Assembly (NCBI GenBank): GCA_963281255.1
Contig: OY725490.1
Coordinates: 6,944,001-7,008,000 of the forward strand
Source of the DNA: Aphrocallistes beatrix
Taxonomy: Eukaryota > Porifera > Hexactinellida > Sceptrulophora > Aphrocallistidae
Direction of reading: 5' to 3'
Length of the DNA stretch: 64,000 nucleotides
Shown: positions 47,365 to 62,917 of the stretch, piece by piece
Layout: the number at the start of each line of letters is the position of its first letter
Numbering within the stretch: the first letter of the stretch is position 1
Translations under genes and position numbers: made by a program
Notes under the pieces: generated by a model
Told to the model about the DNA's origin: nothing
The model's database searches: none
The model's input: the letters and a program-made list of their open reading frames with translations, nothing else

Positions 47365-47488
47365 CTGAGATTCGTTTACGATGATTCAGAATATGTATTG
47401 TATACCGTATATCGCTATATTTCTAAGTATGTAAGTCTATTATAAGCTATGATGTTATCTGATAAGTCGTAGCTGATATTAGGGACGC

Positions 47489-49039
47489 ATGGACACTTCG
47501 TATCATCTCATATTGATACTCTTCCGCCTGTCCAACGCAATCCTTTGCAAAACCTCGTTCGATCCTGACGAGTACTGGCAGGCGCTGGAGGTAGCTCACA
47601 GGAGGACGTTCGGGTATGGGTACCTCACGTGGGAGTGGCACACTCAACTACGCTCCTACATGTTCCCACTCATGTTTGAATGTTTGTATCGAGTGCTCTC
47701 CTTGTTTGAAGGGTGGGGATTCTCGCGAATGCTGCTGGTCTTGTGTCCTCGTCTGGTTATGGCAGTGCTTGCTTACCTCACGGACGTGTACACTCACAAA
47801 GTCTGCACGTTGTTATTCGGGAAAAGAACGGCTCTCACTTGTCTATATCTCCAGATAACCTCCTGGTTCCTGTTCTACGCGATCACTCGCACCTTTATCA
47901 ACTGCCTTGAAGTCTTCCTACTCACCGCAATATTCTATGTCTGCTGCACGCTGCTGATTGAGGACTATCGCGGCAGGATCAGGTCTCGCGAGTTGAGATT
48001 TGTTATATTCTTGAGTTTGATTGGGTTTATTTGCTACCAAAGACCAACTGCAGCACTAGTTTGCGCGTATCTCTATTTCGTAGTCGCATATCTCAGTAAT
48101 CTGCACAAGACTCGCATTCTCGTTCTCTCACTCACCACTAGCTCTGTCGTCAGCGTCGTACTCTGCGCCACGGATGCAATCCTCTACGGAGAGGTGACAC
48201 TCCCACTCATCAACTTCTTGATTCTCAACGTAGTGCACGGGATCGCGAGCTTGTATGGGACCCACCCTTTCCATTGGTATATCACACAGTGCCTGCCAGT
48301 CTTTCTGCTAAACAACCTCCCCGCCTTCTTAATCGGCACATTTTCTGTACTGAAGAACAACCTACGTAACCCTCTCAGCAACAAGCGAGTTCTGATCTTG
48401 TCTATTCCTGTTTTCGTCTTGCTCAATCTCGCTTTCCTAACTCCTGTCCCTCACAAGGAGTTCAGGTACTTGCTGCCAGTGCTACCGTTCTGTCATATGC
48501 TGGCAGCTCGAGGAATATATACACTTAAATGGTATTCCAGTAACAAATTGGTCTCATTAATTGGAAAAATTCTCATCTTGTCACCCCTCCTCCAACTTCC
48601 CGTTTCCATTTACTTCGGATTCGTTCATCAGAGGGGAGCTATTCGACTCATGGACTATGCGCTCGGACATGTTACCCAAGAGAATCGTGTCCTGTTCCTA
48701 ATGCCGTGCCACTCCACACCTCTTTACTCCCATTTGCACAAGAACGCCACTCTTCACTTTTTAGAATGTTCGCCTCCTAACTACGAGCCCGTAGACCGAG
48801 CAGCTGTCTTCTACAAAGATCCAGCGCGGCACACAGAACAACTGCTGCGTGCAAATAGATACGACTATGTGTTCTGCTTCTCAACACTTTCTGAGCAAAT
48901 TGGAGATGTTCTCTCCAGATACGGATTTGCTAAGTCAGTGGAAATATTCCATACCCACTTCCCAGAGGGTAGGATTGGATCTCATGTACATGTATACAAA
49001 CTGATTGATAATATTGCTAGCTTTGAATCGGTGCTATAA
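47489..49039 (+). CDS. PIGB: GPI mannosyltransferase 3
   Basis: Single exon, 516 residues, multi-span membrane protein of glycosyltransferase family 22. The luminal first loop is very close to PIGB: FDPDEYWQALEVAHRRTFGY, then LTWEWHTQLRSY. Later family blocks include PVPHKEFRYLLPVLPFCH. The enzyme adds the third mannose to the glycosylphosphatidylinositol anchor in the ER. The DE of PDEYWQ is the likely catalytic acidic pair. The next gene, NUDT19, begins 85 bases after this stop codon. Confidence 0.95.
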   Translation: MDTSYHLILILFRLSNAILCKTSFDPDEYWQALEVAHRRTFGYGYLTWEWHTQLRSYMFPLMFECLYRVLSLFEGWGFSRMLLVLCPRLVMAVLAYLTDVYTHKVCTLLFGKRTALTCLYLQITSWFLFYAITRTFINCLEVFLLTAIFYVCCTLLIEDYRGRIRSRELRFVIFLSLIGFICYQRPTAALVCAYLYFVVAYLSNLHKTRILVLSLTTSSVVSVVLCATDAILYGEVTLPLINFLILNVVHGIASLYGTHPFHWYITQCLPVFLLNNLPAFLIGTFSVLKNNLRNPLSNKRVLILSIPVFVLLNLAFLTPVPHKEFRYLLPVLPFCHMLAARGIYTLKWYSSNKLVSLIGKILILSPLLQLPVSIYFGFVHQRGAIRLMDYALGHVTQENRVLFLMPCHSTPLYSHLHKNATLHFLECSPPNYEPVDRAAVFYKDPARHTEQLLRANRYDYVFCFSTLSEQIGDVLSRYGFAKSVEIFHTHFPEGRIGSHVHVYKLIDNIASFESVL

Positions 49040-50304: not shown

Positions 50305-50841
50305 TAACTCTCCTCTGTAGAAAGGATTCAGAATAAGACTATTTGCAAATTCGTATTCGACAAATAAGTATACGAATATATTTCGAGGTGCGATTTCAAA
50401 TATGATTAAAGCTTGTATTATATCTCGTTTGTGATAATTAAAGCTTACGATTCGATTTCGAAAATATCTAAAACATGAGTCTTACAGTTGTAGGTCATTG
50501 CCTAAAGTGAGAGCTGTTCGGCGTGTGTAGATGTGTGGTTCGGATCGCAGACTGTAAACCTGGATTGTCCTGTTCTCATGTCAACTACGTCATGATATCC
50601 AGATCTGATGCGCTACGAAGCTGCGTGACACGACCTTCTACTTCTTTCCGAAAGAGAAGAATTTTTATCTCGATTTAGTTTAGGATTTCTTTCTTGGAGT
50701 AGTTGAATCTTATAATTATTGCTATTAGTTATACTACGTAATAAAATTAACATTGGTGAAGTCCATCAATACCATTACGTCTATCACTCGTAGGATTCCT
50801 GTAGTCGCTTAGACGAATTCATTAACCTAGAATAGCAGAGC
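50305..50841. other. Intergenic, AT-rich, no gene seen
   Basis: About 537 bases between NUDT19 and the CCDC28-like gene, holding the 3' leader of one and the promoter of the other. No open frame, RNA gene or element recognised. Confidence 0.6.
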
Positions 50842-51468
50842 ATGGCCACTCAATCTCCTCCACTCCAGCATACCTTCTTCTCCGAGATGAAGCCGATCAA
50901 GGAGATCGAGCAGGAGCTCAACTTGCTGATGAAGGAGTTCGACGAAGGAAAGATGCAAGCGTTTACTGACCCGGAAACCATCTCACGGATGGACCGCATC
51001 CGACAGATGCAGGAGCGGCTGGCACACAAGCATTTCAATCAAGACAGGGAAGTCCTCTCTTCGAGGGAGGAGGGGAAAGGGGATCCGTTCCACCGGGACC
51101 CTTCAAGAACAGAGGAGCTGATGCGAGAGCTAGACGCACTGACTTCAGAGATCCAGGAACTGAAGCCTGTGTCTCTCCTGGACAACTCCTACTCTTCCCT
51201 CCTGAGCTCTCCCATGCTCCTGAAGAATCAGGTGCACTCTAGGTCCCCGGGCTCCTCTATATTCCCGCCAGCAGGGGACGAGGCAGCTGAGAGGGTGTGG
51301 TCCGGGTCTCCTGCACCGACCCCAGATACGGTAAGACTGTCAAGTGTACATTTGCACGAATCATCTCTCACTCCCTCCTCGAGGCTTTCGCAAGATGGAA
51401 CAATTGATTCTCCTGCAGAAAACAGCGAAGGACAGCCTTCCCTGCGACCCGCCAAGCTCGCTAGCTGA
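50842..51468 (+). CDS. CCDC28-family coiled-coil protein
   Basis: Single exon, 208 residues. The conserved region (about 10-110) follows human CCDC28A/B: HTFFSEMKPIKEIEQELNLL, EGKMQAFTDPETISRMDRIR and QMQERLAHKHF. A second helix (LMRELDALTSEIQEL) matches the family's later LLSDLEELNSSI block. The C-terminal half is Ser/Pro-rich and not conserved. CCDC28B modulates mTORC2 assembly and cilium length in vertebrates; extending that here is inference. An AATAAA signal lies about 70 bases past the stop. The gene converges with the large USP53/54-like gene. Confidence 0.8.
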   Translation: MATQSPPLQHTFFSEMKPIKEIEQELNLLMKEFDEGKMQAFTDPETISRMDRIRQMQERLAHKHFNQDREVLSSREEGKGDPFHRDPSRTEELMRELDALTSEIQELKPVSLLDNSYSSLLSSPMLLKNQVHSRSPGSSIFPPAGDEAAERVWSGSPAPTPDTVRLSSVHLHESSLTPSSRLSQDGTIDSPAENSEGQPSLRPAKLAS

Positions 51469-51729: not shown

Positions 51730-54700
51730 TCAGACGTCAGTCGGCGGGACTCCCGTCCTGATCATCAGGTTAGTGGAGCGGATGTGGCGAGTGTAACACT
51801 CCGGACACATTCCTTTGATGGTAAAGAATTTGGTACTGCGACAAACGCAACACTTCTCAGGCACCAGGGATCTTCCTTCCGTGTCTATCTTCGCCGCGAC
51901 CCCTTCTGTGCGAGACTCACTCTTGGTGAGTTTGAAGTAGTCCCTCTTCGGAATGGATTCCGTCTCCTCAGAGGAGGTGGTGGGTCTGGAAGAGGATGTG
52001 TTTGTGTTCGAAGATGAGCTGTTAACAGAGATGCTGCGCGAGTGGATCTTAGAGTCCAGCAGCTTCCTGGACAGCTCCGAGTCGTCGAATTCGGGAGGGA
52101 TCAACTGGTTGAGGAGTGTGAAGTGGTCCTCGTTGAAGAAGGGCTTAGAGGGCGGGTACTGTCTCGTAGGGTCGTGTTTGTTGGAACGACTCGACGCGCG
52201 GGAGCTAGAAGTGGAGGTCAGGTCGTCGGAGAGAGTGGAGAGCGTCGAAGGGGTGGACAGAGTGGAGGGGGTGGAGGTGCGAGAGTCTGAGATGGAGTCC
52301 GCTGGAGTTGGTTTCGGCTTGAGTGCTCTGGAAGGAGGATAGTTCATCTTATGTTCCGACCGGACTGGTTTCTGGTTCTCCTTCTCCTCTTCTTTCATCG
52401 CCCTGCCGATAGGAGGTGGTCTCGGGATGCTCTGGTAGAGGGAGGGGGTGAGGGGAGGGGGTCTGAGGATGGGACGGGTGTAGGAGGGCGGCGGTTCAAT
52501 TTCAGGTCCCTGAGAACTCGGGGTGGATGAGGGTGTGAGTTCCTCCTGGGGCGTGGCTAGGGACGAGATGGAATCGAACTTGACTCGCTTGGCTTTGCAG
52601 TGAGCTTGCTTCTTGGGAGGAGACTTGAACTGGTGGTTGGGGTCCAGCGTCCTGAGGACACTTCTCCGGTGCAGCTTCACAGCTTGCTGGTGGCAGACTT
52701 GTCTCAGCTGAGAGAAGGCTTGCTTCTTGACAGGATCCAGCCGCACGTCGGGCTCTATCAGCGCGAGGTCCAGCTTGTTCTGCGCCTGCACACACAAGCT
52801 AAACGCTACGCTGAAGTCGGACACGTTGTGCGACTCTCGGTACAGGTCCCGCGCCTGCGTGTAGAACATGTCCGCTTGCGTCGGCGGGAAGGAGGCGGGG
52901 AAGGCGGGAATCCTCTCCTGCACCAACTGGGGCGGTGGAATGTATTGAGGAGCATCCGCTGGCTGGTCTTCCGTCTGCCCGCTGGCGATGTTGGACAGTT
53001 CATTCCTGAACTCTACGATGGACTGCAGCTGTTTCCTCCTAAGCCGGTCTACCTCCTGCTGCTGTCTGGACTCCTGCGCCTCCATCTGCTCCTGGTAGTC
53101 CCTGAGAAGGGAGGCCTCCTCTTCGCTGTGTCTGCGCAGCAGCAGCTCGCTCTCCTCGTCCAGCTCGCTGCTACTCATCTCCCGCCCCTCGGGGCCCTCT
53201 GAGGGGATAGGGACAGGAAGGGGCGCCATTTTGATGGAGGAAGGGTCCGGGTCGTACTCCTCGCTGGAAGCGGAACTGCTCTCAGACTCTGCTGGAGGGG
53301 CGGGGCTCTCTTCAGGAGGTGGGAGAGGGTCCGTGAGCGGCGGAGGATGGGAGTTCGTGTAACTGGATGGGTCCGTTAGAATCGAGATTCCCTCTTGAAA
53401 CTGTAACTGTGTAAATGCGTCCATCAACACCTCCAAAGGGACCTGGTAGCTCTGGACTCTCTCCAATACGGCCTTCCCGGGGTTGAAAGCGGTCTTTTTC
53501 TGTCTCTTCTCGAAAGCTGTCACTTCATAGCTCTCTCCGATGCAAGGAATGCTCTGGAACAGATTCCTCCATAGGCCCGTCTCTGTCAGCTGCGCTGCCA
53601 GCGCGGCGACCGCTGCCGCAGAAAGGGACTTGTCAGGGTGCAGGAGGGCGGAGAAGCAGAACTTGGGAGTAGTGCCGCTTCCGGTCTGAAGAGGTGGGTA
53701 CTGTCTCGGGGGGTAGGAGGGGTCTGCTTGTGAGAGAGGCGGTGGGTAGGCTAGGTTTAGCGGAGGTGTGAAGAGGGGGTGTATAAGATCGGTACCGGCG
53801 TAAGGAACCTCAGCAGAGGGCGCAGGAGTCAGACTGGGATGGTAGTAGGGTGCGGGGTCTGATTGCGCAACAGGGGGAGGCAGGGCGATGGGAGGTGCGA
53901 AGAGAGGCTGTGATTGGTTTGTAGGCGCATAGGAGGGATCTGTGAAGGGATTCTGAGTTAGGACAGGGAGGAGGTGCTGGCCTGGTTGTCTACTGGCGTC
54001 AGAAGGGATCACAGGAGGGGGGTTGACGAGTTCGGCTGAGAATATCAAGTCCTGCGAGCGAGGAGCTGGCACGGGATGTGCTGCGACGGCTCCGACTCCC
54101 TGTTTCTTCCGTTCATAATCTTCTAACAGATTCTCAAACCCTATGCCGGGCGGCAGAGCGGGGTAGAGAGAGATTTTGTTTTCTGTCGATTCTTCCTCGA
54201 CCTGCTGCATCCTGCGGATGGTAGCGCTGTCCCCACTGGCCTCTAGACTGCGCGTGGTCTCCTGGGGGAGCTCGAGGGGACTGGGCCGGGGGGCGGTGGG
54301 GTTGAGGTAGAGGGTGGAGAGGAGCGAGTATTTGCTGGTGATTAGGTATTCACTCATTTGTTGGATGCTTGGAAACTAAACAATAAACATACACGTACGT
54401 ACAAACTGGATTTATTCAGAGAATTGCTGAAGAATATTTACCTTCAGTTCATTACGCGGCTATTACTCAGAGGGAGTACCACCAGACGGCTAATGTTAAG
54501 CAATGTCAATTCAAGGCAGTCTTATATAGCGTTTTAAAGAAGTTTATTTATAACTTCGCTCTAAGCGATTATACATTTTTTAGGGGTTCTATATTGCATG
54601 ATCTCAAGTCGGACAATGCGCATATCTTGTGTAGTGTAAAGGACGATATTATTAGCATAAATCAGGGTTTTTTTAAGGTTGAGACCTTGGTGTAACTCAG

Positions 54701-57700
54701 TTTAATCACGGTGTAACCACCGAAAAAATATTAACCAAATATTGCCCACGCTGCAGCGGCCGACCCAAATCGTGGTGTAACTCCCAAAATTCGTGGTGTA
54801 ATTTTTACACCACGATCGCCCTTAAAAAACCCTGGCATAAATGGAATAAATTAGTTTTGCGTTTACCAATACGAGGCTTGTAATTAAGGAATAATGGATG
54901 GACTTACCTGTCCGGCCATATGTCCATCGTAGCACACCCAGCGGCAGAACTCGAGGTGGTAACTGAAAGTGACAGTTTTCCCGGTGGGATCCGCTGCGAG
55001 GACGGAGGAGAGGTAGTAGTGAGGAGAGAGGCAACTCGCGCCGACAGGAATCAGGTCCGAGAGTCGGATGTGAGCGCCGAGTGATCCTGGCTGAGTGAGG
55101 AGTGTGTCACCGCTGAAATCCAGGATGAGCACGTTAGGCACGGAGCGCAGCTTCAGATTGGCCCCGAGAGTGCTGGCGAGAGCTTTGCTGAAGACGAGAG
55201 GATGTGTCTCTGTTCGGAACCTGCGCGTCCTGGCTAGTCTCGTGATGTTCCCTTTGAGGGCATCCAGGAAAACAGGAAATGAAGTCAAACTCCCCTGCTC
55301 ATGCTCCAGCGTGAAGTTCCGCAGGGATCGGTAGTGACCAGTCTTCAGAGTCTCATCGATCGTTCCAGCAATAACCGGCACCAGCTCCCCGATGGACAGG
55401 CATCTGTCCGTGGCGGAGAAGGCGTGTCTGTGTGCGAGGGAGATTGCGCCGGAAGGGAGGGCATAGGCGCGCGAGTAGTAGTGCAGTGCGAATAGGCTCT
55501 TGAGTGCACACATGGGACAACTGTAGCCCAGGCAGGTGTGTCCAGGGGAGAGCAGCACGGCCTGTCTGAAGAAGGGGAGGTGCCAGAGCATACTGATAGC
55601 AGACACGAAGAGAGGAGGTGTCACCTGCTCCTGTGACCGCATGTCGTGTCCTGATTGAGCACTGGGAAGAGGCGGGAGTGAGGTATAGGTGTGGATGTCG
55701 GGGGTAATGAGTAGGACGCTAGGGGGAGGGGAGGTGTCAGAGGGAGGGGACGGGAAGGTGATGAAAGGAGGGGAGGTTCTTTCTAGAGAGAACATTTCTT
55801 GGAAAATTTCAGGGGGCGGGTTTGTGTCGGTGAGACTGGTAGCAGGACCAAAGCTGTCGCTGTCTCCGATATGGAGGTCCAGCATACCAGGCTGTGTGTT
55901 GGTTGTCTGGAAGATGAGCGGTTGTGTGAACTGACCAGAAAGTAGAGGGGAGGTGACATCGGGGGTGAGGCTAGTGAGTAGGGGCGAGGAGAGAGGGGGC
56001 ATGTAGGGATCAGAAAAGGAGGCGGAATAGTGCCCCATGATACTCTCGTTTGAGTAGAAGCAGAAGAGAGGAGAGAACTGGGACGATTTGATCCTGTCGC
56101 AGAGTTGCAACCAGGAGAGTTCTTCTCCCTCGGATAGAGAACCCAACCTGAACAGGAGCCACTTCTCACGCGGACACAGGTACACAGCGGAGGTGTAGAC
56201 CGCATGCCCCTCCTCCACAGAGGAGAGGAGGAGACCTGTCAGGTAGTAGGAGAGGTTTTGGAGATTTCGTTTGGCGGAGACGGCGCCCAGATAGCTGAGC
56301 TGCAGCTGTGGAGGCAGATGGGAGAGAACATCTCGATTCACTGTCTCCTGCTCGCAGCAGAGGCAGATTAGACGCGAGGCGTTCTGTATCTGTTTCTTCT
56401 TCACGCTGGAGACGGACTTGAGGGCGATTCTGCAGTGGTTAGGGTTTAGCTTGGAGAAGCGAGGGATGTTAGTGGCTTGACTCAAGTAGGCCGAGAGGGA
56501 GAGAGAGACTGAGGGGATTAGTTCTTCTTCATTCCTGTCCGCCACTGAGAGGTAGAGCTTATTAAGGAGGGCGGGGTCTCCTTCAATCAGCTTCGAGATC
56601 AGCTGACTGTAGATAGAAGAGGGACTGTTGTCACCTATTGCTTCCGGTGCCAAATTCCTCTGAACGAACACGGAGATATGGTGCTGTCTGGTGGAGAAGG
56701 AGTGCAGGGAGGAGCTGATGAGGTTGCGAACCTCCGACGAGAAGGGTGTCTGAGAGGATTGGGGCGCAAAGGAGGCGCTGAATCCAGGCGTGAGGAGGAG
56801 AGTACTGAGCAGCTGAGTGGTGAGGCTGTTTCTGATGTTGAGCAGGGGCAGAGAGGGGACAGAAGGATGGGGCGTGAGGGTGTGGTAGCGCACCTTGTCT
56901 AGAGAGGAGGCTAGCGATTCGGAGGTAGTGTGCACAGGAGGAGGCAGACCCGTGTGTGCAGAGGCCAGGGGAGAGGCATGCGTCTGCGGAGAGAACAAGG
57001 GCTGTGAGTGGGTGGAGGTGTAGAGGAGCGCGAGGGGGTAGATGGAGTGAGCAGTCACTTGTGCCAGCAGTTCGTCCCAGCGCTGCATACTCGTATGAGA
57101 AACCGCATTCGAGCTGTAACAGCACCACAAGCCCCTGCCCTCCACGTAGCAGTACGAGGAGAGAGCGCCAGTCTCAGAACGCGAGATGATACCGGTGAGG
57201 TAGAAGGGCTTGTGCAGAGAGTGCCGCGCCTCGGCCGAGGGGGACAAGTCTCCGAGAGTGAGGAGAGTCGGAATGCAATTCCAGATCCTCCACGTAGAGA
57301 TCGTCCCCACTTCTCTGTCGTAGTTCACAGCCAAGTAGAACTGGTCCGGACTGTTGCAGACGCGCTGGCAGACGGGCGGCAGTATCTTCTTCAGGCCTTG
57401 CCTCAGCACTTTGTGGTTGTGTGTCACGGGCGTGTTTCGCTGGAGAGAGTCTTTAAACGTGTCCAGCCAATCAGACACAGCTGTCACAACGAAGTACACC
57501 TCCTTCACACCTCCTTCACGGCCTGAGTCCTCCACTTGCAGGGAGTAATGCTCCTTGAAAGCGTCGCTATGCGGCTGGAAGCTCCAGTGCAGCTGGTGGA
57601 ATAGTCGGTGCCCGGTATCGAACTCAGAGCTGCCGAGCATGGAGGGCATGCAGGTGTTGAGGTACTCGATGATGTCCAGCTGGTTCACGGAGTGCGAAGC

Positions 57701-60700
57701 TGCGCGCTTGAAGAGAGCGTCCAGCGCGTGGATGATCTGGTGCTTCTTCTTGATGCGCAGCTTGCAGAAGTTGAGCACGCTGTGGTAGTAGGCAGAGAAG
57801 TTGATCATTTGCAGGAGCAGGTGCGCCGCGATGCTGGTGTCGAAGGGGTCCCTCTGAGTCCGGGGAATGCGCACGTCCCTAGGGCGGGGCAACGGGACGG
57901 AGTTCTTGGAACTGGGGTGTGATATTTCATCTGCCTTGGGAGGAGAACTCCCCTTGAACTGTTGCACTACCTGATCGTAGCGCCCCAAGTTCTCAGCTGT
58001 GAAGGTCTTGGAGGTGAGGAAGGAAGGTGCGGGCTGCTGCTGCTGGTACTTGAGGTCAGGAGACCTGGGAGGGTGTGAATTGCTCTCGGGCATCGTGGCA
58101 GAGGAGAACAGCTGGTCCAGTTGTTCAGCGTAGTTATCCTCTGACTTGGCCAATCGATTCGGTTTGGGGTTGGGTGTGTCCATCAGCTCGCTGTGTCTCG
58201 GAGACGTGGTGTCCAGGTCAGAAGGGGGGTATTCATGAGTTGTCTGTATCACCTGGGGGATCCGCACCTTGTCTTTCTTTTTGAAGTACGTCTTGGGGTT
58301 AAGTTTGTTCAGGAGAGTGATGGAAGTGGCTTTCTTGTGTTTGCCTTTCGGTTTGACGCCATTCTGCTGTGAGAGTTTAAGAGGGACAGTCCTGGTTTTA
58401 TCCTGAGCTGCCTTTGCTCCGCTCTTCCCATTGCTCATTCCCGCTAGGGTGGAGAGCTCAGATACGCTGGAGTAGTGGCTGAAGTCCGGACCGCTCGGTT
58501 TGATCTGAATCGCGTCTATTCCTTCTAAACTCTCCTTGGAGTGAGATACCCTGATAGGCAGTGGCGGTCTCTCTTTGTCCCGGTCTTCCCTGCTGCCAGT
58601 CTCTTCCGAGGAAGAAGTGGAGAGCTGAGGACGGTGTTTGTGTCCGTCCGTCTGCTTCATCCTCTTCTTTAAGTTGATGTCCCGAATTGGGACGTACTGA
58701 GGGTCAGGCGTGGAACGGTCCGGTGGGACTTCATCCGTACTGGAGGACGTCAAGCCTCGAACTCTCTGGACGCTGACGTTCGGGGTCGGAGGGTCTGAGG
58801 GGTCCGGGGCGCTCACGGATCGCTTGATGCTGCTGACGGGTAAGAGGAGAGCGGAGTTCTGGTACTGATGAGAGAAGTCGAGCGGGTTCGTGTAGAAGAG
58901 AGTGCTAGGCTTTGCGTTGAGAGCATCGATCTCGTCTAACACGCGTGCCCAGGTGTCCAGGTTCTTGTACCCCATCCCGTCCACTGACACCCAGGTCCGC
59001 AGTCCTGTGTGGTAGTAGAGGTGCAGAACCCTCTCCTGGGAGATCTCCGCCATCACCCCGGTCAGGTAGAGGAGCGTGCTGGCCCCGGCGTTAGGTCCGA
59101 TCTCCGTGAAGAGCTTGCCTACCTGCAGGGAGGTGGGGAGAGCGCAAAGGAGAGAGTTTACGTCAACGTCACGGTCCGCGTAGTCCAGAGCCAGACACAG
59201 GACTCGCGGAGCTGTCACGAGCAGGGAGGTAGCCAGGTAGGTTCTTTTGCAGGTTTGACTCTTGCAGTTCAGCTTGTTCATTAGCAGTAAAGTGTCGCGG
59301 ATCGCTCGATGTGCGAGGGCGGGAACGTTGTTGATGTTTCCGTGCTTGTTACACGGTTTCTTAGCGTAGGGCAGATAGAGGGCGAGATTGAGATGCAGCA
59401 AGTTCTGTTTGAATTCTGTAGGCTCATATATGGCCCCGCATCTGCACTTGCCGGACTGCTGGAGCGTCAGACTGAAGAGGTTCTGAATGAGTCGGCTCTT
59501 TTCAATCGGGTCAGGTCCCTGGAAGGTGATTGATTTCCTAAGTTCGTCTTTTAGAAGTGTGAGAATCGAATCAAAAACCTCGGTGCCACTTCCGGTGAAT
59601 TGAGGAGAGTTCAGCAGCCGCGAAGATAGGCTCTGTTTGAAACAATAAATTCGTTAATTCAAACCTGAATACACAGCACACATAGTTATGATATCCGTAG
59701 CAAGTATGATAGGGTATCTAGGACACAAGTACTGATTCACACGCAGCACTATATAAGCACAGGACTAGCAGGCCTACCTGGAACAAGTCGAGAGGAGGAG
59801 TGAGGGCTGTCGCGTGAGTGGAGGCAGAGAATATTTGCTTCAGACGTGTGACGAGAGGCAGAGAGTCTGGGGTCCGTAATTGCATTTCTAAGCGGAGGAG
59901 TGACTCTCTAAACGCATCGATGCTCCAGAGAGCGACGATACTGGTGAAGAAAGGGTGGTAGCTAGCTCTGGTCTCTTTCCTGAATATGCTGCATTCGGAG
60001 CTAGCTTGGGAGGGAGGAGGGGGGTGGGGCGTGGATACACTCTGTCCGTTTAATAAACCGTTTCTGTTCGGTTGACGCCTGCACAGAGAACTTTCGTAGT
60101 TAGATCCGATGCCGATACTATCAAGTCCTTCCAGACTCGCAGTGTTCCCGGATAAGTGCACATCCTCGTTGCTGGCGTCGTTATAGAGAACCATCCGGAC
60201 CGGACTTCCCGCCCTCTGCTGTAGCTCTGCCGGCATCACTACGTCCTGCACCAGCCGGAGAGAGGGAGGCTCCTGTGTCGGGTCGTCTCGCGGGAACATG
60301 TCGGTGAGGATTTGCTCCGCTATGGAGTTCAATCCAGGGTTGGTCTTAGTGTGCGAGATCTCAGGGAGGCCTCTCTCCAAGGGAGAGGAGTCCAGCAGGC
60401 TGGGGGCGGGGTTGAGGTAGAACAGGACGTCAGGACGGCAGTAATTCGACTCGAGGAAGTAGCGGACATCCTGCCAGACCAGGCCGATTTTCTCGAAGTG
60501 AGTCCCGTCATATATGATCCACGACTGTATGTCAGTAGTGTAGTATATGATCAACTGCACCTGGTTGACCGAGACGAGCATTCCGTAGAGGGAGAGCACT
60601 CTCTGAGAGATAAACTTGTTGGCTACCAGGGGGAAGAGGTCCTTCATGAGGAGAGAAGGGGAGATGTGCTGCACGATGAATTCAGTGTCGGAAGAGTTGA

Positions 60701-61253
60701 TGACGTCAGGATTCCATTGGAGGTGTAGAGGGATGACGTCAGGGGAATTCATAAGCGATAGAGAGGTCCCGTCGTGAGTTAGCATGTTCCGAATGATGCT
60801 AGAGAAGAGCTTAGGGAAGGAAGGAGTTTGGTGGGGTTTAGAAAGCGCAGATTGGAGCTCAGCCACTAGTCTGTTGGCAGAGATGGGAAGAGCCACCTGT
60901 GTGTAGAGAGTGCCTTCCTTATGCTGCACTCGAATCTGCAAGCTCTGCTTGAGATAGTTAACGAAAGGGTTGAGTGGGAAGCGAGAAAAGAGCTGCGAAA
61001 CTAGATCTATGTAGAAGTCAGTGGCAGTGGTACCGTTCAGCTGGGCTAGCAGGCCTATGTGTTGACAGGAGACGGGAATGAATCTGGAGGGGATGAGATG
61101 AGGCACTGCGATGATGATGTTAAATATTTGCTTGAGATAGATCAGCGGCGTGTCTTCGATTACTTGGTCATGGATCTGAAGGAGGGAAAGCCTGAAGTGA
61201 TTCATTTGCAGCAATGTGAAGAGGACGACGGACAGTCTCTCTGCGCACTCCAT
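51730..61253 (-). CDS. Giant USP53/USP54-like pseudo-deubiquitinase with about five UCH-like modules
   Basis: Three exons by frame: 59778-61253, 54908-59632 and 51730-54375, giving about 2,948 residues; introns are 145 and 532 bases. Both joins restore a module. The first gives LDLFQ+SLSSRLLN before a zinc-ribbon half CRCG; the second joins RWVCYDGHMAGQ to FPSIQQMSEYLITSKYSLLS. Module 1 ends WIIYDGTHFEKIGLVWQDVR, close to human USP54 [20 protein letters not shown]. Related C-terminal cores recur (YLTGVMAEIS, FYLTGIISRS, YYLTGLLLSS, YYLSSVLAAD). Module 5 keeps GYSCPMCALKSLF (USP54 DSCIFCALKSLF). No module keeps the catalytic Cys or His by my alignment. The C-terminal 700 residues are Pro/Ser-rich with an MIT-like helical segment and a CxxC...CxxC zinc motif (CCVC, MCPEC). 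The start may lie further upstream: the frame stays open to a TTATTCTAG acceptor near 61322. Confidence 0.82.
54376..54907 (-). other. Long intron of the USP53/54-like gene
   Basis: At 532 bases this is about eight times the usual intron length in the window. It begins CAG|GTAAGT (exon end 54908) and ends GTTTAG at 54376. It carries the hAT-like MITE at 54663-54834, which explains about 180 of the extra bases. No open frame. Confidence 0.8.
54655..54842. mobile_element. hAT-like MITE with 8-base target duplication
   Basis: The element spans 54663-54834 (172 bases). It begins CAGGGTTTTTTTAAGG and ends with the inverted counterpart CTTAAAAAACCCTG. It is flanked on both sides by GCATAAAT (54655-54662 and 54835-54842), a perfect 8-base target-site duplication. 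CAGGG...CCCTG ends and 8-base duplications are hallmarks of the hAT superfamily. There is no coding capacity, so it is non-autonomous. Internally it carries repeated TGGTGTAA words and a palindromic TTACACCACGA / TCGTGGTGTAA pair near the right end. Confidence 0.9.
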
Positions 61254-62086
61254 TTCGCTGGTGGGGACTACTGATTGCGGAGAGAGGTTGGGAGAGGGAG
61301 TGAAGTCGCGCTCTGTGAACTAGAATAAAACAAAAAATTATTAGATTGTTCTTATTCAGAAGTACTACAGTGGCGAGCATTTTAAGGAGGATAATGATGA
61401 TAATAACAAAGGTGCATAAAGCCATTGCTTCAAAGTATTCGCCCTTTGTCTCTTCATAATGATGGAAATTAGATAATATATAAACAATAGATGTAAAGCT
61501 AGGTATATTGCGAAACAGATGCAAGCATATTGTCATAACTGTGCTCGCTATGTTATGTGCAAAATGTAAGTGTGCGAATGAAGATATTATAGGTCAGGTT
61601 AATAGGAGATTAAGTAAGAGAAAAGATATTGAATATCGAACCTATTTTTTCTGAAAGTACTCAACTGAAGAGATGATTAAGCACATAGGCGCCGAACCCG
61701 GGGGAGCTGGGGGGGCTCGAGCCCCCCCTGGATTCGAAGATGGCCCATAGACGCAATACAAAATTTTGGGCTGAGCCCACACTGGAACCCCGAAATTGTC
61801 CTTAGATTTTGAAAAGTTCGGCGCCCCTGATTAAGCATCCTCAATATTAGCATAAACAAGCCAGATTACCGGTCAAGAAATGAACTCACAATTCTACCTG
61901 TGCATCTGTTTAATTGAATCATAATCAGACGAGCACAGAGATTGTGTGAAGTAACTTGAGCTCTATCTGCAGCCAATAGAATTAGACGCTGGAATTTCGA
62001 CAGAGAGTAGGCAGAGAGACAGGGGTTACAGATAATATAATAAATAATGTATCCAGGATTCTTTAAGAAGTTTAAATCACTTTGGT
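61254..62086. other. Region upstream of the USP53/54-like gene, with possible further exon
   Basis: The frame of the first USP-like exon stays open from 61253 to an acceptor-like TTATTCTAG near 61322 and reads FTERDFTPSPNLSPQSVVPT, so the exon may begin at about 61321 and be preceded by another exon or a spliced leader. The rest is AT-rich and holds the hAT-like MITE at 61676-61837. On the plus strand it should hold the promoter of the NHL gene at 62087. Confidence 0.5.
61676..61837. mobile_element. Second hAT-like MITE with 8-base target duplication
   Basis: The element spans 61684-61829 (146 bases). The left end is CATAGGCGCCGAAC; the right end, reverse-complemented, is CAGGGGCGCCGAAC, a match at 12 of 14 positions. 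ATTAAGCA flanks both sides (61676-61683 and 61830-61837). It has no coding capacity. The inside is GC-rich with a run of about eight G and a run of about seven C, unlike the AT-rich surroundings. It differs in sequence from the element in the intron at 54.7 kb, so it is a separate family. Confidence 0.88.
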
Positions 62087-62917
62087 ATGATAACCAAAAG
62101 CATCGGGAGCTATGGAGACCAAGAAGGGAATTTTAAGGGACCGAGAGGAATTGCCATCGAACCGAGTAGCCAAAATATCTATATTGTAGACTCGATCAAT
62201 TGCCGCGTACAGGTTTTCTCCAAAGATCTGATATACGAGTTCTCCTTCCCCCAAGCTGGTGATTCAGCACGATTGAACCTACCTTGGGGTATTTGCATAA
62301 AAGACTCGCTCGTGTTTATAACTGCTAGCTCTATCGACTACTTCGAAAGGCAGGCCGAACACGGATTCTATGTATACACGATAGATGGGATATTAATAAC
62401 GAAGATTAATAGATATACTGTACGAGAGAGAGAAATGAAGTTAAACGTGCCTCAGGGAATCGCGGTGGACTCCGAGAACAATGTGTATATCGCTGATTTT
62501 AACAACTCGCGAGTAATCGCATATTACGTGTCATTGCCTCTCTATAGTGTAATTGTTGCAAATGCAAACCCAAGGAATGTCTATTTGCACAGCAAAATGC
62601 TGTATATACTCCTCAGCAATGGAAAGGTGATTAGGAAGGGATTAGATAAGGAGACAGAAATTGAAAAGATAATCAATTGCAAAAGAAATTCCTGTTCGGC
62701 AGAATTCTTTTCTGTGTTAGATGATAAAGTATATGTATGCGACCAGAAACGGAATCAGATTATCGAGTACTCTATTGAAAACGGAGAAATGACGAGGACA
62801 ATAGGACAATCTGATAGCTTCACTCACATCAAAGGTTTAGCTTTTGACAAGCAGTCAAATGTCCTTATCAGTGTGTGTGAAAATGAACGTAACAGGCTAA
62901 AGCGGATCTTACTGTAG
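62087..62917 (+). CDS. Stand-alone NHL-repeat propeller protein
   Basis: Single exon, 276 residues, almost wholly NHL repeats: GPRGIAIEPSSQNIYIVDSI, NCRVQVF, VPQGIAVDSENNVYIADFNN and SRVIAYY, then degenerate blades to the end. No RING, B-box or coiled coil precedes it, and the upstream frame meets a stop within about 14 codons. The length fits one six-bladed propeller, probably a protein- or RNA-binding module. It is a tandem paralogue of the NHL gene beginning at 63441 and more distantly related to that at 46123. Confidence 0.8.
   Translation: MITKSIGSYGDQEGNFKGPRGIAIEPSSQNIYIVDSINCRVQVFSKDLIYEFSFPQAGDSARLNLPWGICIKDSLVFITASSIDYFERQAEHGFYVYTIDGILITKINRYTVREREMKLNVPQGIAVDSENNVYIADFNNSRVIAYYVSLPLYSVIVANANPRNVYLHSKMLYILLSNGKVIRKGLDKETEIEKIINCKRNSCSAEFFSVLDDKVYVCDQKRNQIIEYSIENGEMTRTIGQSDSFTHIKGLAFDKQSNVLISVCENERNRLKRILL

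Follow-up and report, generated by a model that had tools for sequence, protein, structure and literature searches.

The deubiquitinases USP53 and USP54, earlier annotated as pseudo-enzymes, are described in a 2024 paper as active K63-specific enzymes, which hold K63-linked chains through an S2 site with the aromatic residue F161/Y160 (F161 in human USP54) (PMC12037411). Echinus is the Drosophila homologue of USP53/54, and its non-catalytic isoforms are reported to suffice for mutant rescue (PMC1950886). The family therefore has catalysis-independent roles. The human, shark (P0015) and Drosophila proteins each contain one USP module. Here, a locus of the glass sponge Aphrocallistes beatrix was analyzed in a window of 64,000 nucleotides (contig OY725490.1; C3:6944001-7008000 in a genome of 100.5 Mb and 28 contigs). 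In contrast to the known proteins, this locus carries an array of three plus five such modules: modules 1 to 5 (M1 to M5) in a gene within the window, and modules A, B and C in an adjacent frame. With a probability of roughly 60%, the array is a very large non-enzymatic scaffold that descends from USP53/USP54 and arose as the USP domain multiplied and its copies lost their catalytic residues; such an array is so far known from glass sponges.

The spliced product of the window gene is a stop-free sequence of 2,948 residues. It is assembled from three minus-strand exons with GT/AG borders, and all joins are in phase 0. An earlier note, made from this DNA alone, had described three exons joining in phase, and the alignment with the Oopsacas minuta orthologue P0001 is indeed continuous across both junctions. 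The giant, non-catalytic protein of about 2,950 residues described there is likewise supported, with the catalytic residues lost and activity predicted to be absent. The exons and introns, in window coordinates, are as follows:

59778..61253, minus strand, exon 1; residues 1-492, counted from the conserved Met
59633..59777, minus strand, intron 1; 145 base pairs (bp), GTAGGC...ACAG, phase 0; the orthologue reads across
54908..59632, minus strand, exon 2; residues 493-2067; orthologous open reading frames (ORFs) are P0011-P0014
54376..54907, minus strand, intron 2; 532 bp, GTAAGT...TTAG, phase 0; the orthologue reads across
51730..54375, minus strand, exon 3; residues 2068-2948; coding to 51733, stop codon at 51732-51730

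The frame of exon 1 is open upstream to an AG acceptor (61321-61320) in phase 0, and the exon may begin at 61319, which would add 22 codons. The Met of the O. minuta orthologue is at the same place as the exon 1 Met. Within intron 2 (window 54772-54813), a span of about 40 bases contains two copies of GTGGTGTAA and one of its reverse complement, TTACACCAC, an arrangement reminiscent of a small mobile element's terminus. A 94-base tRNA-Thr was reported by ARAGORN on the plus strand (window 59511-59604), antisense within exon 2, and is probably a false match.

The five modules of the window gene were compared with human USP54 (PDB entry 8c61) and with one another. Their positions and best matches are given below:

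60384..61253, minus strand, pseudo-USP module 1; residues 1-290; 8c61 at E 1.5e-9 over 166-285; hhalign 99.4%
59778..59975, minus strand, pseudo-USP module 2, N-terminal piece; residues 427-492
58865..59632, minus strand, pseudo-USP module 2, C-terminal piece; residues 493-748; four finger Cys kept; 8c61 at E 1.5e-10
56984..57856, minus strand, pseudo-USP module 3; residues 1085-1375; hhalign 99.2% against the remaining modules and USP54
56024..56857, minus strand, pseudo-USP module 4; residues 1418-1695; the most divergent of the five and the least certain
54908..55645, minus strand, pseudo-USP module 5, main part; residues 1822-2067; 8c61 at E 3.8e-8; hhalign 99.6%
54283..54375, minus strand, pseudo-USP module 5, last piece; residues 2068-2098, in exon 3

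When the PDB was searched with phmmer (177,635 distinct sequences, matches down to E 10), 8c61 was the sole match for residues 1-760 (E 1.8e-12), for module 2 and for module 5. As single sequences, modules 3 and 4 gave nothing in the PDB, or unrelated matches only, at E 0.92 or worse. Profiles of these two modules were prepared from five of the six rows, with P0013 left out. The module 3 profile matched 8c61 only (E 9.4e-9), and module 4 matched no USP either alone or as a profile. Compared with each other over 172 columns, the profiles of modules 3 and 4 match at 94.5%.

Modules 3 and 4 were also compared by hhalign with a profile of all other modules and USP54. The scores were 135.7 (99.2%) for module 3 and 84.2 (97.5%, six-row profiles) for module 4, against maxima of 22.5 and 19.9, respectively, from 30 shuffles each; the tested module was excluded from the profile, yet the joint alignment had been built with it. 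In pairwise comparison of the eight module profiles, 18 of the 28 pairs exceeded 50% probability and 10 fell below it. Module 3 pairs with modules B (92.5%), 2 (92.1%) and 4 (92.6%), and module 4 exceeds 50% with module 3 only. Among the control-control and control-module pairs, only two overlapping tail pieces rose above 20%. Shark USP54 scored 85.9-100% with seven of the eight modules and only 6.3% with module 4, and nine controls reached at most 0.6%. The 8c61 matches and the profiles thus bear out the USP53/54 descent that the earlier note had assigned to the modules. The Pfam UCH family (PF00443), named there as a check, gave no match over its cut-off for any of the five, with 17.8 of the 23.9 bits required for module 2 and no match for modules 1, 3, 4 and 5; module A of the adjacent ORF passes the cut-off at 25.5 bits. 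On this comparison, all five window modules are USP53/54-type domains, and module 4 is the weakest case, linked only via module 3 and the profiles.

The activity of USP53/54 (PMC12037411) implies that missing the usual USP motifs is no proof of inactivity in this family, and therefore the motifs peculiar to USP53/54 were checked in a joint alignment with 43 module rows. It also makes out of date the view of vertebrate USP53/54 as pseudo-enzymes. No Cys is present at the nucleophile column in any module row (0/43, 5 gapped) and no His at the His column (0/43). The Cys-loop motif (NEPGQNSC-type), which is matched by shark USP54, is likewise absent from all 43. The Cys column holds His in module 2, Ser in module 3 and Pro in the module 5 of the window; the joint alignment leaves a gap at this position in module 1, where alignment by hand places Glu. 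The His, Pro and Glu agree with the earlier assignments for modules 2, 5 and 1. A single Asn (in an M5 row) is found at the oxyanion column, and the catalytic Asp is kept in A, B, M1 and M2 and partly in M3 and M5. The S2 aromatic of USP53/USP54 is absent in 42 of the 43 rows, the remaining row having a Tyr (module A), although the alignment of this strand may be off by 1-2 residues. The possibility of residual activity through a displaced His was rejected: a His lies within 4 columns of the His column in seven rows (four M2, one M4 and two M5) and never in the column, a Cys lies within 4 columns of the Cys column in one M5 row, and no row has both.

Remains of USP53/USP54 are nevertheless recognizable in part of the array. 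The N-terminal motif (LWHLDIFRR, then H-x-C-x4-C-x2-C) is discernible in A, B, C and M5, and thumb or finger Cys occur in A, B, C, M2 and M5. Of the three zinc sites of USP53/USP54, the likely ligands, assigned from the motif and PMC12037411, are kept in B and partly kept in A, C, M2 and M5; unlike USP53/USP54, M1 and M3 have none and M4 has one stray Cys.

A further USP53/54 gene was located in the same genome by tblastn with shark USP54, as pieces at C1:6211593-6213962 on the minus strand (two of them scoring E 3e-11 and 1.5e-5). By this search it belongs to the same family as the array. In contrast to the array, a single module is recognizable, broken into short pieces that suggest many exons, and the catalytic Cys and His are present: the gene keeps the Cys box NNCFINS, the His motif GHHFSAF and the Cys-loop motif. 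As a control in the joint alignment it is gapped at the S2 column.

A second comparison within the genome is provided by a tandem cluster of LGNTC-type USP genes at C17:3629001-3669000 (L030-L033). It includes an ORF of 1,609 codons (C17:3633379-3638205), which like the array holds several USP domains in one frame. Domain 1 reads NLGNTCYLNS and is without GHY, domain 2 has both motifs, and domain 3 reads NLGNVSYFNS and has GHY. Unlike the array, these are ordinary LGNTC-type USPs, in which copies 1-2 keep the Cys and copies 2-3 keep the GHY. Judged by these motifs, the ORF is a case of partial decay within an array.

The search of the A. beatrix genome also provided the adjacent frame with modules A, B and C. 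This same-strand ORF of 1,380 codons (C3:7008282-7012424) starts 282 bp beyond the window end, and its modules are matched by shark USP54 at E 1.1e-21, 4.7e-53 and 2.8e-16, respectively. From its first Met to a donor AAG/GTGAGT (L014:7391-3336) there are 1,352 codons. In the three records that reach the donor site, P0002 (own species), P0003 and P0004 (Oopsacas), the donor-site residue is followed by Val (GT-), and the frame ends 17, 10 and 2 residues later, respectively, as would be expected of read-through into an intron; the donor DNA itself is seen in A. beatrix alone. Joining this ORF to the window gene would give 1,352 + 22 + 2,948 = 4,322 residues. The features between the two frames are:

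between C3:7008336 and C3:7005319 (the exon bases that would be joined), minus strand, putative joining intron; 3,016 bp; phase and frame fit
window 62048-62917 (L014:1048-1917), plus strand, NHL-repeat ORF 1; Pfam NHL at E 1.9e-18
window 63429 to the end of the window (L014:2429-3250), plus strand, NHL-repeat ORF 2; similar by eye

The two NHL-repeat ORFs lie on the opposite strand between the two pseudo-USP ORFs and are probably nested in the joining intron. Nested genes are given as 12.4% of genes in Aphrocallistes vastus (PMC10282587). From the frames and splice sites it is likely, not proven, that the window gene and the upstream ORF are one gene with eight modules and about 4,322 residues. 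The gene delimited in the earlier note is thus right in its three exons and probably incomplete, and the internal duplication proposed there stands as a multiplication, with five modules in the window gene and probably eight overall.

Related sequences were sought among 5.8 billion proteins. With the 2,948-residue product as query, the one match at E up to 1e-3 (5,928 candidates scored) was O. minuta P0001, a protein of 2,900 residues that is 51% identical over 100% of the query and carries the NCBI name inactive USP53. The searches with the upstream ORF and with exon 2 scored the 7,997 and 7,984 candidates sharing most words, respectively. The upstream ORF gave eight matches, of which P0002 is the same sequence and the others are 51-75% identical. 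Exon 2 gave six: the copy from the window itself, the four orthologues P0011-P0014 (49-50%) and one shark USP54 (P0015). The search for orthologues in related genomes suggested in the earlier note has therefore provided both a whole-length Oopsacas protein and further records. Conservation was assessed with P0001 and P0004 (Oopsacas), P0003, P0005-P0009 and P0011-P0014, the ENA records being taken as glass sponges from their similarity to Oopsacas. P0001 and P0004 are on contigs that are both 521,018 long, and P0005 and P0013 on contigs that are both 37,221 long, so that the two ORFs are probably adjacent elsewhere too.

A tree built from 29 rows groups the sequences of every module into a clade of their own, with support of 100/99 or better in all eight cases. 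From the 45 rows of the joint alignment, 16 were left out (a maximum of four per module was kept, and three short M2 rows were dropped), and M1 and M2 are represented by two rows each, from the window and Oopsacas. The M3+M4 and M1+M5 joins link long branches and may be false. Since the clades are common to A. beatrix and Oopsacas, the eight modules predate the split of the two, and the array is, on this tree, an old and conserved feature that is at least older than that split. The fraction of invariant columns is 0.38-0.51 in modules 2-5 and 0.17-0.40 in the linkers between them. Module B is best kept, with 60% invariant columns in seven rows versus 36% in A and 21-36% in linkers; module C is truncated in most of the seven. 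Among the literature titles listed, a set that excluded subscription journals and supplements, none described USP53/54 proteins with several modules.

The C-terminal tail of the window gene resembles that of USP54 in two features, as judged against a single shark protein:

52642..52890, minus strand, MIT-like helical stretch; residues 2563-2645; resembles the shark USP54 tail
51787..51855, minus strand, C-terminal C-x2-C-x11-C-x2-C knuckle; shark USP54 and Oopsacas share its spacing and its place at the end of the protein

Residues 2551-2650 are 84-88% identical to Oopsacas. The MIT-like stretch was aligned with shark USP54 by hhalign at a score of 22.9, which was reached by none of 300 shuffles, and a longer tail stretch at 24.1 versus a maximum of 20.7 in 40 shuffles. 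The shark piece has a sub-threshold match to Pfam MIT (E 0.014). The corresponding piece of the window has no Pfam match, and in the PDB it matches two designed single-chain coiled coils; no accepted family was obtained for the tail pieces from Pfam or the PDB. A death-like fold was suspected at residues ~2310-2405, where no credible Pfam or PDB match appeared. A second copy of the array tail was not found in the A. beatrix genome. The shark MIT-like piece also gave no match there, even to the array tail that is present, and therefore this genome search lacks power.

Several observations weigh against a scaffold of eight modules encoded by one gene. The joining intron is predicted from DNA rather than from a transcript, and 3,016 bp is long relative to the glass sponge averages given in the literature (341 bp in Oopsacas and 516 bp on one Aphrocallistes scaffold). 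According to PMC10282587, the Oopsacas annotation includes only 83 nested genes, and spliced leaders are trans-spliced in Aphrocallistes, which could explain an acceptor before the Met. Both Oopsacas records (P0001 and P0004) are annotated as separate proteins. The tail likeness involves a single shark protein, with 25 residues aligned, and when the Cys knuckle was compared by profile it scored no higher than shuffles. The scaffold role itself is argued from missing catalytic residues and by analogy.

The length of the intron, the trans-spliced leaders and the paired Oopsacas models, on contigs of the same size, also favor two neighboring genes of three and five modules with their own promoters. 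The acceptor would then belong to a 5'-untranslated region or a trans-splice, and the upstream ORF would be spliced to a short terminal exon. A G at both -3 and +4 of the exon 1 Met, together with the shared position of that Met in Oopsacas, is consistent with this arrangement. However, the upstream ORF on its own would be without a USP54-type tail, and phase and frame fit a join. Its donor is ~85 bp from the stop of an opposite-strand NHL ORF, so that a private terminal exon would either overlap the NHL genes in antisense orientation or fall between the two. For a comparison of the 22 codons preceding that Met, no DNA of a relative was found in the viral and genome contig sets searched. Two genes are possible, though the less probable arrangement.

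The copies are without the cutting residues, yet their arrangement is conserved in related sponges, and the product is therefore probably a docking scaffold and not an enzyme. The modules would be separate, diverged protein-docking folds strung on linkers, and the USP54-type tail (MIT-like stretch and zinc knuckle) would serve as an anchor. By analogy with the Echinus isoforms, the modules would bind partners without cutting them.

A polyvalent reader of ubiquitin chains, in which the dead modules would still grip K63-linked chains and shield ubiquitinated proteins or bring them together, is considered unlikely. The binding of such chains by USP53/54 through S2 (PMC12037411) would be compatible with it, multiplied modules would bring avidity, and finger Cys are retained in A, B and M2. 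However, the aligned column lacks the S2 aromatic (F161 of human USP54) in 42 of the 43 rows, the Cys loop is lost, and the S1 site is weak in USP54 already. The loss of the aromatic weakens the ubiquitin-binding role proposed in the earlier note; binding by the known S2 mode is disfavored from the aligned residues, and other modes are possible.

Slightly less likely still is a regulator of the C1-encoded USP53/54 enzyme, where the array would compete for substrates or partners as a built-in dominant negative. Array and C1 gene do coexist in the genome, and inactive USPs are discussed as dominant negatives in PMC1950886. The eight modules are, however, strongly diverged (their stem branches in the tree measure 1.0-2.1 changes per column), which argues for different partners rather than one common substrate. 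A decaying pseudogene or an assembly artefact, suggested by the loss of every catalytic residue, is ruled out for practical purposes by the conserved long open frames, the splice sites and a module order kept at ~50% protein identity in independent records.

Other neighbors were identified on both sides of the array. An Alg9-like mannosyltransferase (E 4e-82) is encoded on the plus strand at window 47483-49036 and a CCDC28-type protein (E 1e-14) on the plus strand at window 50836-51465. Long tandem arrays that are open in frame are present at L015:6954-9998 and in L016 (C3:7021954-7029529, the contig end). One of the contig-end units reads CNVAFPKICCS and one starts SLKQCQIESDSRHFVVPVGGYSDILRK; these are probably repeats and not genes.

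Glass sponges have syncytia and plugged junctions, and the content of the junctions is described as undetermined in PMC10280926 and PMC5684314. These are a possible place of action for the array. More speculatively, and with low probability, a single ~4,322-residue protein, carrying eight inactive USP53/54 folds and already established in the glass-sponge ancestor, would be a dedicated structural scaffold of syncytial tissue, for example of the proteinaceous plugged junctions. If this is true, a deubiquitinase fold was turned into a building block. The locus presents the reverse of the rehabilitation of USP53/54, in that a lineage has kept a gene with catalytic residues beside an array of dead yet conserved copies. 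This suggests that a deubiquitinase fold may serve as a repeated binding module, and it makes the array a concrete candidate for a component of glass sponge junctions and syncytia.

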